Under the pieces are notes generated by a model. The model made no database searches and had not been told where the DNA came from. It saw only the letters and a program-made list of their open reading frames with translations. A DNA stretch of 64,000 nucleotides from Paenimyroides baculatum (GTDB lineage: Bacteria; Bacteroidota; Bacteroidia; Flavobacteriales; Flavobacteriaceae): contig NZ_VWSG01000001.1 in the NCBI RefSeq assembly GCF_008629655.1, forward strand, positions 62,001 to 126,000, in the 5' to 3' direction. The position numbers and the translations under genes are program-made. Each line of letters starts with the position of its first letter. The first letter of the stretch is position 1. Below are positions 42,631 to 64,000 of this stretch, one piece after another.

Positions 42631-42701
42631 TTGGTCCACAAGGACTCGAACCTTGAATGACTGCACCAAAAACAGTAGTGTTACCATTACACCATGGACC
42701 A
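42631..42701 (-). tRNA. tRNA-Gln (UUG), copy 3 in transcription order
   Basis: The minus strand folds as a cloverleaf: acceptor TGGTCCA/TGGACCA, D stem GTG/CAC, anticodon stem ACTGT/GCAGT with loop TTTTGGT (anticodon TTG), T arm CAAGG-TTCGAGT-CCTTG. The 3' CCA is not encoded. Sequence identical to the two upstream copies. Confidence 0.96.
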
Positions 42702-42729
42702 ATTGGTTTGATTTTTAATAAGCTTTTTG

Positions 42730-42800
42730 TTGGTCCACAAGGACTCGAACCTTGAATGACTGCACCAAAAACAGTAGTGTTACCATTACACCATGGACCA
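42730..42800 (-). tRNA. tRNA-Gln (UUG), copy 2
   Basis: Identical to the copy at 42631-42701 over its whole length; 28-bp spacer to copy 3. Anticodon TTG in loop TTTTGGT. CCA not encoded. Confidence 0.96.
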
Positions 42801-42830
42801 TTATTAGCTTATTTTGTTTAGTTTTATTTG

Positions 42831-42901
42831 TTGGTCCACAAGGACTCGAACCTTGAATGACTGCACCAAAAACAGTAGTGTTACCATTACACCATGGACC
42901 A
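42831..42901 (-). tRNA. tRNA-Gln (UUG), copy 1
   Basis: First of three identical tandem copies, 30 bp from copy 2 and 46 bp after a consensus promoter. Anticodon TTG. CCA not encoded. Confidence 0.96.
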
Positions 42902-59714: not shown

Positions 59715-59747
59715 TTAATGTTTTTTAGTTTTTATTTTAAAACTAAT

Positions 59748-59777
59748 TTGCATTTATTAAAAAAATGCTTATATTTG
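59748..59777 (+). promoter_or_regulatory. Perfect promoter without an ORF downstream
   Basis: TTG (59748-59750), 19 bp, TATATTTG (59770-59777): full Bacteroidota consensus on the plus strand. No coding frame of meaningful length follows for over 1.5 kb, so it probably drives a noncoding RNA. Confidence 0.7.
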
Positions 59778-59782
59778 TTTTA

Positions 59783-60055
59783 GCGAATTGATAATGAGTC
59801 TGCAAAGACAAATTAAAACGATGTTATCTCGAGTCAGAACGACCAAATTTCCCTCGAGTGTATCGTGAAATCGCTCCATGTCTAAAAAGTTTTGTACTTT
59901 CGTATACGGCATGGGCGGTTTTCACATATGCTTTAGTGGGAAACTTTAAGACTTCCAGTTATTAAAGAGGGTTTGGTCGCCCATGACTCTAAAGTGTGAA
60001 ACCGCTCCTTGCTTTTTCTGCAAAGAATTCTTTACACTCAGGAAACATCGTTCCA
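59783..60055 (+). ncRNA. Candidate structured noncoding RNA
   Basis: The ~270-nt stretch after the promoter is dense with pairing segments: ACGAT/ATCGT (59818-59822/59862-59866) with CTCGAG/CTCGAG (59828-59833/59853-59858); CATGGGCG/CGCCCATG (59910-59917/59978-59985); and an outer AACGATGTT/AACATCGTT (59817-59825/60044-60052). Two near-identical copies of GTGAAAYCGCTCC (59865-59877, 59996-60008) flank their own complement GGGCGGTTTTCAC (59913-59925), so two folds can compete. It matches no RNA family I recognise (not tmRNA, RNase P or SRP RNA). Confidence 0.5.
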
Positions 60056-61308
60056 TAACCACCTAAAATCTTATTTATGAGAACGAAATTTGTACATACC
60101 GCCATAACGCATCCGCCTTAATACAGTGCCGAAGCTTTTCCTTTTTTGCTGCCCCTGCACCAAAAGTTATATAATAGCAACAGGCATACGGTGCGGTAGC
60201 AGTGTGATAATCTGCTATACACAAATGTCAGCACCGCATATAACGTACCTTATTACTTTGGCACTATATAATTAGGGCATTTTAACTTATAAACTCGCAC
60301 TTTAAAAGTATTGCCTTTATTTGTATTTTCCAAATTGGAGGTTAAAATAATTGGGGTAAGGTTTAGGGGCTTTGAAAAGGGTTGTTTATAAGCTTTGAGT
60401 TTTTTTAATGCTCATTGAAAGATGAGAGAACATAGAGCTTTGTAATTTTTCTTTAACTTTTACCTTGATGTAAAAGTTACAAAAGATCAAGACTTTATTT
60501 TTTCAACGGTCAAATGAAGTCTTATTTCCTAAAAGAAATAAACTCGCTACGCTCAAACAGCATTTCTTTTCACGGAAATTTTGCCTATTTGACACTCGCT
60601 GAAAAAATAATGTCGCTATTAAATCCGGATTTATTCAACAATAGGATTTTGATTGAAAATGAAATAGAGTACTTAGGAGTATTAAAGCGCCATTAGTTCA
60701 TAAAACGATAGTTGAACCGACGAAGAGAGTGTAAGATGATCGAGAAGCGGAGCGACGTTTCGATCAGATAGTGAACGAGGAAAAGTTCAACCGTTTTGGA
60801 CTGAGGCAAGACAAAGAAAAAAAGCACTTTGCTTCTTTGGTGCATCAAAGAAGAGAAAAAACCGCAAGGAATCAATTAAGCAGAATGTTTGAGAATCGAA
60901 AGAGATCTTTCACTTTGTTCAAGATGACAAACTTTGCGGAAAACTAGATGCGATGCTGCATCGGAGTGCAGCATGACCGAATGTATATTCAAGTGAAGAT
61001 TGATAAGATTTTTCTTTTGGTCGCAAAAGAAACAAAACTCCTGAGCGTCACTACTCGTGGTCGATTAACGATTTAATAGTTAAATCAAATCAAACTCGCT
61101 TTTTCAAAGCTCAAACAGCATTTGATTTTGCACTATTTTCATCGAATCGACGCTCACTGCGTTGTGAATGCTCAGTTTTGGATTGTAGTATATAGTAGCA
61201 TTGGATTTTTGATTGAAAATCGAAAGAGGTCTTTCATCTCACTAAGTTCGAGGTAACAAACTATAGACTACACCATCACAGAAAAGTATAATTAATAATC
61301 ACCCCATT
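60056..61308. repeat. Gene-free mosaic of degenerate dispersed repeats
   Basis: No convincing gene. Visible elements are: a CTTGAT...ATCAAG inverted element around 60470-60500; a direct repeat of AAACTCGCT...GCTCAAACAGCATTT at about 60548-60569 and 61104-61133; a perfect hairpin ATGCTGCA/TGCAGCAT (60953-60960/60967-60974); and two diverged copies of GAAAATCGAAAGAGxTCTTTC followed by GACAAACT-like text at about 60891-60932 and 61216-61262. These resemble dispersed intergenic repeats of flavobacterial genomes. A 60-codon frame at 60514 lies inside such repeats and is not credible. Confidence 0.6.
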
Positions 61309-62070
61309 ATGCCAGAAAGAAATTTTGAATTATTAAAAAACAGCGACCCTGCTGCTTTAGAAAAGATTCATGCCCAATACAAAAGACTTATTTTTTGGGT
61401 GGGCAGACAGTATCTTGACGATGATTTTGTGGTGGAAAATTTGGTACAGGATACTTTTTTAAAATTATGGGATTATCGTGAAAAGATCGAAAACCCTTTG
61501 CATATACTTTTTTTTTTGAAGGTTGTCATGAAAAGAAGTTGTTATTCGCACCATGCAAAACCCCGAAACAAGTTTTTTAAAACCAACGTGAGCTCGTTTG
61601 AGAGTTATGAAAATTATGAGAACTCTGTAACAGGTTATGATCCTGCGGATGAGTTACAAAATCTGAAGGATCAGGAATCACAACAAATGCTTTTCGATCT
61701 TATGAACAATGCACTACCTCTGATCAATCCGGAGAGAAGGCATCTTCTAAATCTGTGTCTGAAATACGGTTTTCGATATAAAGCTATTGCACGTGCTATG
61801 GGAAAAGGTACTATGGAAACCGTTAACGAGGTACAACGGGCAATTGACGATATAAAGAAAATTGTAAATGTTGGAAGCAGTGCTGAATCTAGAAAAAACA
61901 AGATCAGACCTGAGTATGTAGATAAGGAACTTAGCGACCTACAGTTAAAAATACTGAGAATGCGATGTGAAATGAACCTGTCCTTTGAATCCATCGCAAA
62001 AGAATTGAACCTTCCCACAAAAGAAATACATAAGGACTTTATGACAGCCTACAGATTCACCCAGCGATAG
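61309..62070 (+). CDS. ECF-like sigma factor paired with dead Cas12f
   Basis: A 253-residue sigma-70 family protein. Region 2 spans about residues 15-82 (KIHAQYKRLIFWVGRQYLDD, then NLVQDTFLKLWDYREKI), region 4 about 126-185 (LPLINPERRHLLNLCLKYGF, then YKAIARAMGKGTMETVNEV). Ordinary ECF factors (~180 residues) end there; this one has a third unit at 205-250 (ELSDLQLKILRMRCEMNLSF, then ESIAKELNLPTKEI) that again looks like a region-4 helix-turn-helix. No anti-sigma gene is adjacent. It lies 28 bp upstream of a Cas12f-like gene, the arrangement reported for RNA-guided transcription systems in Bacteroidota. It is expected to bind RNA polymerase and be brought to DNA by that protein. Confidence 0.82.
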   Translation: MPERNFELLKNSDPAALEKIHAQYKRLIFWVGRQYLDDDFVVENLVQDTFLKLWDYREKIENPLHILFFLKVVMKRSCYSHHAKPRNKFFKTNVSSFESYENYENSVTGYDPADELQNLKDQESQQMLFDLMNNALPLINPERRHLLNLCLKYGFRYKAIARAMGKGTMETVNEVQRAIDDIKKIVNVGSSAESRKNKIRPEYVDKELSDLQLKILRMRCEMNLSFESIAKELNLPTKEIHKDFMTAYRFTQR

Positions 62071-62098
62071 CTAAGTAATCAATCTAAAAACGGTTATT

Positions 62099-63196
62099 AT
62101 GAAAAAAGCAACAATGACATTAACCCGAAGAATGCAGATAACAATTGATCTGCCAGCCGGAGAGCAACGAAAAAAGGTATGGAGTAAAATGTACAAGTGG
62201 CAGGATATATGCTGCCGTGCAGCAAACCTTATCGTGAGCCATTTGTACGTGCAGCTGATGATCACAGATTTTTTTTACCTGTCTGAAGGAGTAAAATACA
62301 AACTGACCGATGAAAAGAAAGACATTGACGGTATACTGCAGCGCTCGCACATAAACTGCACCTACCGCATGCTAAGCGACCGTTTTAAAGAGGAGATTCC
62401 AACCAATATGCTCGCATATCTTAACCATGAGCTGATAGGAAAGTTTAGAAAAAACTATAAGGAATATTTGAACGGTACCCGTTCTATAGATAATTTTAAA
62501 ACAAATAAGGGATTTATTTTTGGAAAGGAAGGCGTAAGGCAACTGCAATACAACGAGGAGAAAAAGTACTTCGGATTTGTTCTGTTTAAAATTCCTTTCA
62601 GAGTTTATCTGGGTAAAGATTTTACCGATAAATACCTACTTTTACAGCAGGTACTGTCTGGTGAGGTAAAACTTTGTACTTCGAGGATTAAAATGGATAA
62701 CGGAAAAATTTTCTGGCTGCCGGTTTTTGAGATTGCTATGGAAAAGCACTCTCTGAAACCCGAAATCGTTGCAGAAGCTTCACTTTCACTTGAGTATCCG
62801 ATCTCTGTTAAAATAGGAAAAAACAGGTTACAGATTGGCAATAAAGAAGAGTTTTTGCACCGCAGGCTGGCGATTCAGGCTGCATATACCCGAACCAGAA
62901 AAGCGGTAGCTTATTGCAGAGGTGGGAATGGCAGGGATAGAAAATTAAAGGCTTTGAACAGATTCAAAAATATGGAAAGTAATTATGTAACGAACCGCCT
63001 GCACGAGTACAGCAGAAGGCTTATTGATTTCTGTGTAAGTAATCAGGCTGCTACACTTGTGCTGCTGGATATGCAGGAAAATATTGATATTGCAAAAGAG
63101 GAGCAGTTCTTACTGCGTAACTGGAGTTACTACGAACTAATAACAAAAATTAAATACAAAGCAGAAAAGGCAGGTATTGAACTTATTACTACATAG
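62099..63196 (+). CDS. dcas12f: Nuclease-dead Cas12f/TnpB-like RNA-guided protein
   Basis: A 365-residue basic protein. Residues 1-60 (SKMYKWQDICCRAANLIVSH) resemble the Cas12f WED/REC start. The RuvC-like region runs ~222-365. At motif I the GVDLGI Asp position reads SLSLEY, Ser230 in place of Asp. At motif II (TLVLLDMQENI) Leu323 replaces the catalytic Glu. After NWSYYELITKIKYKAEKAGI the protein ends, so the zinc finger and the motif III Asp are absent. It should therefore bind RNA and DNA but not cut. Intact TnpB (~400) and Cas12f (400-550) are longer. It is cotranscribed with the sigma factor and precedes a structured guide-like RNA. An inactive transposon relic is the alternative, but the intact frame and sigma linkage argue against that. 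Confidence 0.8.
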   Translation: MKKATMTLTRRMQITIDLPAGEQRKKVWSKMYKWQDICCRAANLIVSHLYVQLMITDFFYLSEGVKYKLTDEKKDIDGILQRSHINCTYRMLSDRFKEEIPTNMLAYLNHELIGKFRKNYKEYLNGTRSIDNFKTNKGFIFGKEGVRQLQYNEEKKYFGFVLFKIPFRVYLGKDFTDKYLLLQQVLSGEVKLCTSRIKMDNGKIFWLPVFEIAMEKHSLKPEIVAEASLSLEYPISVKIGKNRLQIGNKEEFLHRRLAIQAAYTRTRKAVAYCRGGNGRDRKLKALNRFKNMESNYVTNRLHEYSRRLIDFCVSNQAATLVLLDMQENIDIAKEEQFLLRNWSYYELITKIKYKAEKAGIELITT

Positions 63197-63210
63197 TAAA
63201 ATAATATTTA

Positions 63211-63226
63211 GAGGGTGCCTGTACAC
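63211..63226 (+). other. Hairpin after the dCas12f gene
   Basis: GGGTG and CACCC (within 63213-63228) form a 5-bp stem around CCTGTA directly after the dcas12f stop and before the first TGAATG hairpin. It may be part of the first guide-like scaffold or an RNA-processing signal. Confidence 0.45.
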
Positions 63227-63232
63227 CCGTAA

Positions 63233-63259
63233 GGTGAGGTTGCATACACTCACTGAATG
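63233..63259 (+). repeat. Guide-scaffold-like repeat, copy 1
   Basis: GGTGAG (63233-63238), a 7-nt variable stretch, then ACACTCACTGAATG (63246-63259). GTGAG pairs with CTCAC to form a hairpin ending in TGAATG. The 14-nt end is identical to copy 2. The bases after it (from 63260, CGAAAAGCATATACAATC) would be its guide or spacer. Confidence 0.7.
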
Positions 63260-63283
63260 CGAAAAGCATATACAATCATGACA

Positions 63284-63447
63284 AAAGTCCGTTTTTATTA
63301 ACGAATGTTTTGAAACCTGTACATCGTTACAACTTATAACAGAGCAAACGGACTGTAATTGGATGAATAAGATAGAATGGTGGTTTATCTGTTAAAGGTG
63401 AGATCAGTTGGAAACACTCACTGAATGATTGCAAAATAAACAAAACC
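63284..63447 (+). ncRNA. Candidate dCas12f guide RNA
   Basis: Four nested or interlocked helices: stem 1 AGTCCGTTT/AAACGGACT (63286-63294/63346-63354); inside it stem 2 TAACGA/TCGTTA (63299-63304/63324-63329); a pseudoknot TAACAGA/TCTGTTA (63337-63343/63388-63394) that pairs the loop of stem 1 to sequence 3' of it; and the terminal hairpin GTGAG/CTCAC (63398-63402/63417-63421), followed by TGAATG. The guide would begin at 63428 (ATTGCAAAATAAACAAAACC) and run into a terminator. Pseudoknot plus terminal hairpin plus 3' guide is the layout of Cas12f and TnpB guide RNAs. The ends are estimated. Confidence 0.65.
63397..63427 (+). repeat. Guide-scaffold-like repeat, copy 2
   Basis: GGTGAG (63397-63402), an 11-nt variable stretch, then ACACTCACTGAATG (63414-63427), identical at the 3' end to copy 1. 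Distance between copies is 164 bp, too far for a normal CRISPR spacer. Confidence 0.7.
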
Positions 63448-63475
63448 GCTCTGAAATGAAAGCGGTTTTGTTTAT
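63443..63475. terminator. Bidirectional terminator
   Basis: AAAACCGCT and AGCGGTTTT pair around CTGAAATGAA with a T-rich end on both sides. It would end both the candidate guide RNA and the convergent mscS gene. Confidence 0.85.
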
Positions 63476-63477
63476 TT

Positions 63478-64000
63478 CTATTTCTTTTCAGGTGTTTCGT
63501 TAATAACACGGATAGGTGATGCAGCAAAGGGATTACTGAATCCGCCTTCGTAAATGGTTTTTTTAATTTCGTCTTGTATTTCAAAGTTTAACGAACCAAA
63601 ATCTGTTTTAGTTGCCCATGCACGAACGGTTAAAACAACACCACTTGCAGCTAATTCTTTTACAAAAATCTCTGGTTTGGGATCTTGTAAAACTCGGCTG
63701 TCAGCAACTAATTTACTTTCTATTGCCTGCTGTACTTTTTGTATGTTATCTGCATAGCTTACGGTTAAAGCAAATTCTATTCTACGTTTTGATATTTTCG
63801 AGAAATTTCTGATCACAGAATTTGCTAAAGCACCATTCGGACTAAATACTTTTATTCCTTGTGCGTTGTTTAAAGTGGTGTACAATAAATCGATTTTTTC
63901 AACTGTTCCATCGGTTCCTGCAGAATTTTCTATATAATCGCCTACTTCAAACGGACGGAATAATAAAATCAACACGCCGCCTGCAAAGTTTGATAATGAT
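63478..64000 (-). CDS. MscS-family mechanosensitive channel, 5' end outside window
   Basis: The C-terminal ~173 residues are in the window. Upstream of the first Met the frame stays open to the edge with LSNFAGG followed by VLILLFRPFEVGDYIE, the MscS pore-lining helix and adjacent beta-domain start, so the true start lies beyond 64000. The rest is the cytoplasmic vestibule (VFSPNGALANSVIRNFSK). It releases solutes on osmotic downshift. The inserted sigma/dCas12f module ends right beside it, so this gene probably marks return to core chromosome. Confidence 0.9.
   Translation of the reverse strand, partial: SLSNFAGGVLILLFRPFEVGDYIENSAGTDGTVEKIDLLYTTLNNAQGIKVFSPNGALANSVIRNFSKISKRRIEFALTVSYADNIQKVQQAIESKLVADSRVLQDPKPEIFVKELAASGVVLTVRAWATKTDFGSLNFEIQDEIKKTIYEGGFSNPFAASPIRVINETPEKK

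Follow-up and report, generated by a model that had tools for sequence, protein, structure and literature searches.

Comparison of a locus in a 64,000-nucleotide stretch of Paenimyroides baculatum DNA (this whole stretch is called the window below, and its genome G000) with solved complexes and with related loci shows a nuclease-dead Cas12f (dCas12f) gene, a sigma factor gene and a guide-RNA scaffold side by side, which very probably make up an RNA-guided transcription activator. Assignment to the class of sigma factor, dCas12f and guide RNA systems is strongly supported by homology, because both proteins belong with those of a solved complex family. It is further backed by the linkage to a sigma gene in 36/36 loci and by a covarying scaffold that is found in 10/10 dCas12f genomes searched versus 0/5 same-genus genomes without detected dCas12f. 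The parts of the locus are:

61309..62070, + strand: sigma-70 family, extracytoplasmic function (ECF)-like, sigma factor gene, 253 amino acids (TIGR02937; PDB 9n9q chain C)
62099..63196, + strand: dCas12f gene, 365 amino acids (PDB 9n9c/9n9m/9n9o/9n9q; AlphaFold2 model and Foldseek)
63204..63276, + strand: guide-RNA scaffold (covariance model R2; 38-sequence alignment)
63277..63296, + strand: predicted guide, CATGACAAAAGTCCG..., placed after TATACAAY as in relatives with upstream-matching guides
63368..63444, + strand: degenerate second guide-RNA scaffold (covariance model R2; direct repeat; copy in the relative L001)
63434..63477, no strand: inverted repeat with flanking A/T runs (arms of 17 nucleotides (nt), 100% complementary, loop of 10 nt)

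A sequence-only reading of this DNA had proposed a sigma factor gene followed after 28 bp by a Cas12f-like gene, and both open reading frames and the gap between them are confirmed. The protein encoded by the second gene aligns over residues 1-363 with the PDB entries named 'Nuclease-deactivated Cas12f' (9n9c, 9n9m, 9n9o and 9n9q; E 9.7e-154), and other Cas12f entries in the PDB follow far behind (E 5e-34 and worse). Structure prediction, which had been suggested as a check, leads to the same family. The AlphaFold2 model, built from an alignment of 42 sequences, is of moderate confidence (mean predicted local distance difference test score 75.7, predicted template modelling score 0.52), and Foldseek places it closest to 9n9m, the 'dCas12f-gRNA-DNA complex (partial R-Loop)' (E 5.5e-43, 62% identity, TM 0.69), followed by 9n9c, with identities to the solved dCas12f family of 58-62%. 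Profile matches are weaker: NF040570 guided_TnpB is found at E 5.9e-17 and 62 bits (the family cut-off is 100 bits), and the Cas12f1-like TNB domain at E 0.053 over the first 21/60 positions, where the match ends because the protein stops.

The catalytic RuvC residues are replaced in all 42 aligned sequences: the window protein itself plus 41 others, which we selected among 120 listed homologues (the search returned 960 proteins). When HMMER aligns the protein with 9nzo, Ser228 (in AEAS) falls opposite the catalytic Asp, at a position held by S in 41/42 sequences and by T in 1/42; in the alignment to 7wju the catalytic Glu lies opposite Leu323, where 42/42 sequences have L, M or V. The sequence-only reading had the Glu right and the Asp two residues off, at Ser230. 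It had also noted that the C-terminal zinc finger and RuvC-III are absent, and this holds: neither the TNB zinc finger nor RuvC-III is present in the window protein, and the RuvC-III region is missing from 42/42 sequences. Since every one of these proteins is 364-367 amino acids long, the missing C terminus belongs to the family as such and does not come from a truncation at this locus.

The sigma protein matches TIGR02937 sigma70-ECF (E 4.6e-19) and, over residues 5-250 of 253, chain C of 9n9q, 'RpoE' (E 4.9e-83). We examined 36 loci (L001-L008 and L031-L058), the best-scoring places, a choice in which weak or broken copies are under-represented. A sigma gene lies directly 5' of dCas12f in 36/36 of them, in two families, so that the conservation in relatives by which the pairing was to be judged is found throughout, and the two genes are one operon-like unit across relatives. 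At one locus, L052, dCas12f is interrupted by stop codons.

The guide-RNA scaffold begins 7 nt 3' of the dCas12f stop and scores 87.9 bits (E 5.4e-19) with covariance model R2, which was built from 32 sequences, the window's own copy among them. Its hairpins pair 63213-63217 with 63224-63228, 63233-63238 with 63249-63254 and 63257-63260 with 63266-63269, every pair being kept, and it ends in TATACAAT. The relatives also carry the scaffold 3' of dCas12f, with three hairpins (GGGTG/CACCC, GGTGAG/CTCACT and AYRC/GYAT) and an end that mostly reads TATACAAY; a pattern search finds it in 35/36 loci, and in the 36th (L056) it was seen by eye. In a 38-sequence alignment 98.8% of pair cells are paired, against a shuffled mean of 96.6%, and 0/500 shuffles score as high. 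The third helix covaries, with one pair that is A-U in 19 sequences, G-C in 17 and G-U in 2. R2 finds the scaffold in 10/10 dCas12f genomes versus 0/5 same-genus genomes without detected dCas12f; nine of the ten gave sequences to the model, and G152 gave none. The start of the window's guide at 63277 is predicted from the scaffold end in relatives.

Downstream, the window's second scaffold copy scores 25.1 bits (E 7e-4) and is degenerate, and 63239-63259 recur as a direct repeat at 63407-63427. The close relative L001 has a second copy with a complete end and the guide GCGTGGGTTC. A perfect inverted repeat of 17 bp (63434-63450/63461-63477) overlaps the end of the degenerate copy and is likely a bidirectional terminator between the module and a convergent MscS-like gene (label by eye). 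What had been described as structured noncoding DNA ending in a terminator is accordingly made up of the scaffold, its degenerate copy and this repeat.

The window's genome (3.34 Mb in 31 contigs) contains four dCas12f genes, on C1, C23, C27 and C30 (identity 100, 71, 70 and 60%), each with a sigma gene directly 5' and with one or more guides. Because the guides differ, the modules are likely four differently addressed regulators. R2 has 11 matches in this genome: two on C1 (one degenerate), two on C23, four beside the module on C27, one on C30 and two weak ones. The weak matches, at C27:213305-213525 (L185), lie about 13 kb from the C27 module; no dCas12f remnant was found near them in the 3 kb fetched, and they are possible orphan guide RNAs. 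Several relatives carry 2-4 scaffold copies in tandem, and arrays of 3-4 tandem guide RNAs are seen at L047, L050, L058, L033, L035 and L003. The copies at L058 include the dCas12f 3' end, so such arrays likely grow by tandem duplication with divergence of the guides.

Among 60 genomes (G000, 36 of the same genus and 23 of the same order), dCas12f occurs in three: G000, one other of the genus and one of the order. An order-wide sample gave matches in 37/393 genomes, G000 included, with fragments only in G374, G403 and G410. The closest named relative is an uncultured Myroides metagenome-assembled genome, at 96% identity, and a second genome holds a 96%-identical module with its scaffold intact.

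We expect the module to work as the solved family and the reports on it indicate, and take from them the assembly of the ribonucleoprotein, the 5'-G motif, the recruitment of sigma factor and RNA polymerase, and the start position. The complex of dCas12f and guide RNA would bind a DNA site beside a 5' G, which is the target-adjacent motif of the class. Once bound, it would recruit the sigma factor and thereby RNA polymerase. Transcription would then start just downstream of the bound site, a few tens of bp past the R-loop; for RNA-guided initiation the reported distance from the target-adjacent motif is about 46 bp.

Many relatives have guides that match a site before their own operon. At 18/36 loci a guide matches over at least 10 nt (rU:dG and rG:dT counted) a G-preceded site that shares the orientation of its own sigma gene and lies 198-228 nt before the point where the sigma match starts. 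This count admits only sites with the 5' G, and alignments in which the G is not imposed show it as well. When each guide was shuffled individually, 0 to 24 of 200 shuffled versions did as well as the original. Wobble scoring is permissive, as in guide 2 of L047, which has a 12-nt wobble-only run; by exact identity, the best guide and its own arm share at least 7 nt in 11/20 loci with an arm and 5 nt in 9/20. L033 has another guide, AAAGCCTTCCC, and its site, at about the same distance, differs accordingly; no other locus shows guide and site changed together. Of the remaining guides in matching loci, most start with (G)GCGTGGGYTC and correspond to one arm of a conserved leader of about 165 nt.

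This leader lies upstream of the sigma gene in 20/36 loci; in 16/36 no leader arm was found within the 300 nt searched. Guides of the common family do not covary with their own arms. Among the 20 loci of the GCGTGG family, permuted partners do as well in 341/5000 trials by exact and 819/5000 by wobble scoring, and without L033 in 3888 and 3996 of 5000. Shared ancestry of a leader-directed guide therefore explains the data no worse than continued selection for a match to the own arm. L038 and L046 lack the hairpin, the target arm and the terminator arm, the 5' part of the leader abutting the sigma start (by eye), and they keep GCGTGG-type guides.

Thirty leader copies can form two mutually exclusive structures. 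The first, a nested hairpin, has 97.3% of cells paired (0/500 shuffles as high), and 11/25 of its pairs are changed on both sides somewhere. The second is a helix of the guide-matching arm (arm 1) with a downstream arm (arm 2), followed by a T-rich stretch; 94.8% of its cells are paired (0/500 shuffles as high) and 4/11 pairs show double changes (4/500 shuffles as many). These shuffles do not remove relatedness. The helix is present in 30/30 copies with arm starts 53-59 nt apart, and shuffled downstream sequence equals it in 25/6000 trials. Judged by these pairings, the leader appears to be built like an attenuator. Rfam, searched up to E 0.1 with ten loci, gave no match to it in the nine that carry it; one sub-threshold match lies elsewhere in L034. 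A transcriptome study of Flavobacterium psychrophilum describes 64 structured 5' regions, many of them without an Rfam match (PMC9723704), and the leader may already be in print among these.

A model of the leader, R1, gives 50 matches in 15/16 genomes, 1-8 per genome. Matches occur in 2/3 same-genus genomes without detected dCas12f, so the leader is older than the module or independent of it. We fetched the surroundings of 30 of the 50 (L104-L133). A sigma-dCas12f pair follows directly in 11, a SusC-like gene (by eye) in 8 and a member of a small protein family in at least 4; the others have no such gene within about 1.5 kb. The SusC-like genes have Plug and CarbopepD_reg_2 domains in 4/4 tested. 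A family of about 180-200 amino acids is encoded downstream of leaders L121, L122, L127 and L131, and the one member tested has no Pfam match above cut-off. The copies in the window's genome are:

C27:232815-232980, - strand: leader copy (R1)
C12:367345-367513, - strand: leader copy (R1)

About 3.3 kb separate the first from the C27 sigma gene downstream of it, a stretch that includes an IS110-like transposase gene (by eye; C27 ~230570-231550, - strand); the second is followed after about 3.9 kb by a SusC-like gene, and a gene on the opposite strand lies in between. Guide 3 of L003 matches C27:232597, between leader and IS110-like gene, at 17/20 positions with a 5' G; we find this suggestive and did not count it, the match being AT-rich and one of many comparisons.

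Guides that match arm 1 of a leader placed before the operon's own sigma gene, and leader copies before SusC-like uptake genes as well, suggest that RNA-guided transcription starts within an attenuator and so avoids the terminator. In a fuller and more tentative form, which we regard as possible but doubtful, dCas12f-sigma modules override the attenuator by starting transcription within the leader, past arm 1 but ahead of the terminator arm that follows 53-59 nt later. A start at about 46 bp would fall between the two arms, so that the RNA made would not include arm 1 and the terminator could not form. The outcome would be RNA-programmed terminator bypass and positive autoregulation. In the window's genus, the modules would have multiplied (four in G000), lost the leader or come apart from it, and been re-addressed by new guides.

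No leader was found in the window, where the best R1 score is 12 bits (E 1), and the window's guide differs (CATGACAAAAGTCCG). The sequence-only reading had placed the locus in the RNA-guided class and had it programmed to switch on a distant gene of this genome. The class stands, on the homology of both proteins, but the distant gene is not established: the guide 20-mer has no match elsewhere in the window with up to 3 mismatches, and the genome search with candidate guides for sites upstream of genes gave no convincing target. GCATGACAAR occurs at 3 sites in G000 versus 14 for the reversed control, and at 4 versus 12 in G060, so there is no enrichment. Read one base later, as GATGACAARRG, the motif has 5 sites in G000 and 4 in G060, of which 5/5 and 3/4 lie inside open reading frames of at least 100 amino acids; the fourth G060 site (L148) is outside such frames, but none starts within 700 nt downstream of it.

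The best genomic site is C29:110525 (+ strand) in G000, a G and then 12 identical nucleotides (CATGACAAAAGT). It lies at the 3' end of an epimerase-like open reading frame, 131 nt before a lipoprotein-like gene of 132 amino acids (labels by eye) that has no Pfam match above cut-off. The site recurs in G060, but as part of a coding sequence there, so that being conserved cannot count in its favor; we keep it as a weak candidate and do not claim it as the target. Two further patterns were tried and rejected. The guide GCGTGGGTTC followed by a T-run, sought in four genomes, gave a match common to three (GCGTGGTTTTTTTTATTT) that resembles an intrinsic terminator. The pattern GGGCGTGGGYTY gave 3 matches in ten genomes, all inside open reading frames; it misses the leader sites in those genomes because most read (A/C/T)GGCGTG.

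Some results count against a working activator with an address in this genome. With up to 3 mismatches the 20-mer finds in its own genome only itself and one site without a 5' G, inside a coding frame (BamA-like by eye), and the reversed control is equal, 2 and 2. A match of G plus 12 nt is expected about 0.14 times per genome by our own base-composition estimate, or about once in seven genomes. The window's second guide RNA is degenerate, and the module is rare in the genus, present in 1/36 other same-genus genomes.

The lack of a strong target match and the degenerate second scaffold would suit a decaying or idle copy, with intact proteins, a guide without a functional target here and one guide RNA lost, as would the missing leader upstream of the window's sigma gene, unlike the 20/36 loci that have one. 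Both open reading frames are nonetheless full length, the first scaffold keeps every pair, and the second genome retains its 96%-identical module with an intact scaffold; we consider decay improbable.

The guide RNA might instead act on RNA, pairing in trans with the other arm of the leader as an antiterminator. In 30/30 leaders arm 2 (GAGTTCCACGCC-like) is a possible pairing partner of arm 1, which the guide resembles. Yet the protein family binds DNA in an R-loop, by the title of 9n9m, the window is without such a leader, and the G before the match fits a DNA-level motif, though this G is also paired in the leader. We hold this reading to be very unlikely.

Another system for comparison is TldR, a TnpB-derived RNA-guided repressor that has a dead RuvC effector with an adjacent guide RNA and no sigma partner. 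Both are dead RuvC effectors turned regulators beside a guide RNA, but the window protein is closer to Cas12f than to TnpB, has a sigma partner and is predicted to activate. Repressing dead relatives of TnpB/Cas12 such as TldR give a precedent for a repressor at this locus, to which the sigma gene would be an accidental neighbour. The linkage in 36/36 loci of two families and the presence of sigma and dCas12f together in PDB entry 9n9q speak against this, and we give it very little credence.

Cas12f nucleases (AsCas12f1 7wju, CnCas12f1 8hr5 and Al3Cas12f 9nzo) share the fold and sequence similarity over at most residues 72-363. In them the RuvC residues and the zinc finger at the C terminus are retained, whereas the window protein has neither and comes with a sigma gene attached. 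The intact RuvC triad of CRISPR-Cas12f (type V-F) is not present, and no regular short-repeat array lies beside the effector in 61000-63700; cas1/cas2 were not searched for. That the protein is in truth an active miniature nuclease of the Cas12f or TnpB kind, as the weak family matches to TnpB/Cas12f nucleases would suggest, can be dismissed with near certainty in view of the Asp-to-Ser228 and Glu-to-Leu323 replacements and the RuvC-III region missing from 42/42 sequences.

The closest known system is dCas12f-sigmaE (9n9c and 9n9m, released 2025-12-24, with 9n9o and 9n9q), whose dCas12f and sigma partner are alignable with the window's proteins over the ranges given above and whose solved complexes include a guide RNA by title. 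The differences are the window's guide and, in G000, four modules with multi-copy guide RNAs. The primary work reportedly consists of 2025 reports from the Sternberg and Chang groups. To our knowledge, natural RNA-guided activators are a very recent discovery and their host targets an open question. The locus adds a member to a class whose dated PDB entries are of December 2025, and with it come a four-module genome in which guide RNAs occur in several copies, a guide-RNA model and a link to a leader and attenuator in relatives. The comparison yields a testable rule for native targets, by which a covarying leader resembling an attenuator precedes the operon itself as well as SusC-like genes, and this rule predicts where RNA-guided start sites should fall. 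The leader connection is possibly a new lead on native targets.

Some minor observations concern the rest of the window. The 1.6 kb or so 5' of the sigma gene (59715-61308) are without a long open reading frame. They contain GATGACAAACTTTGCGG, also present upstream of sigma in L001, which is an 8-nt guide match after a G; shuffled guides equal it in 8/200 trials for the window and 42/200 for L001. At gathering thresholds, Rfam finds tRNAs only in the whole window, among them three tandem tRNA genes (42631-42901, - strand) with the same Rfam scores.

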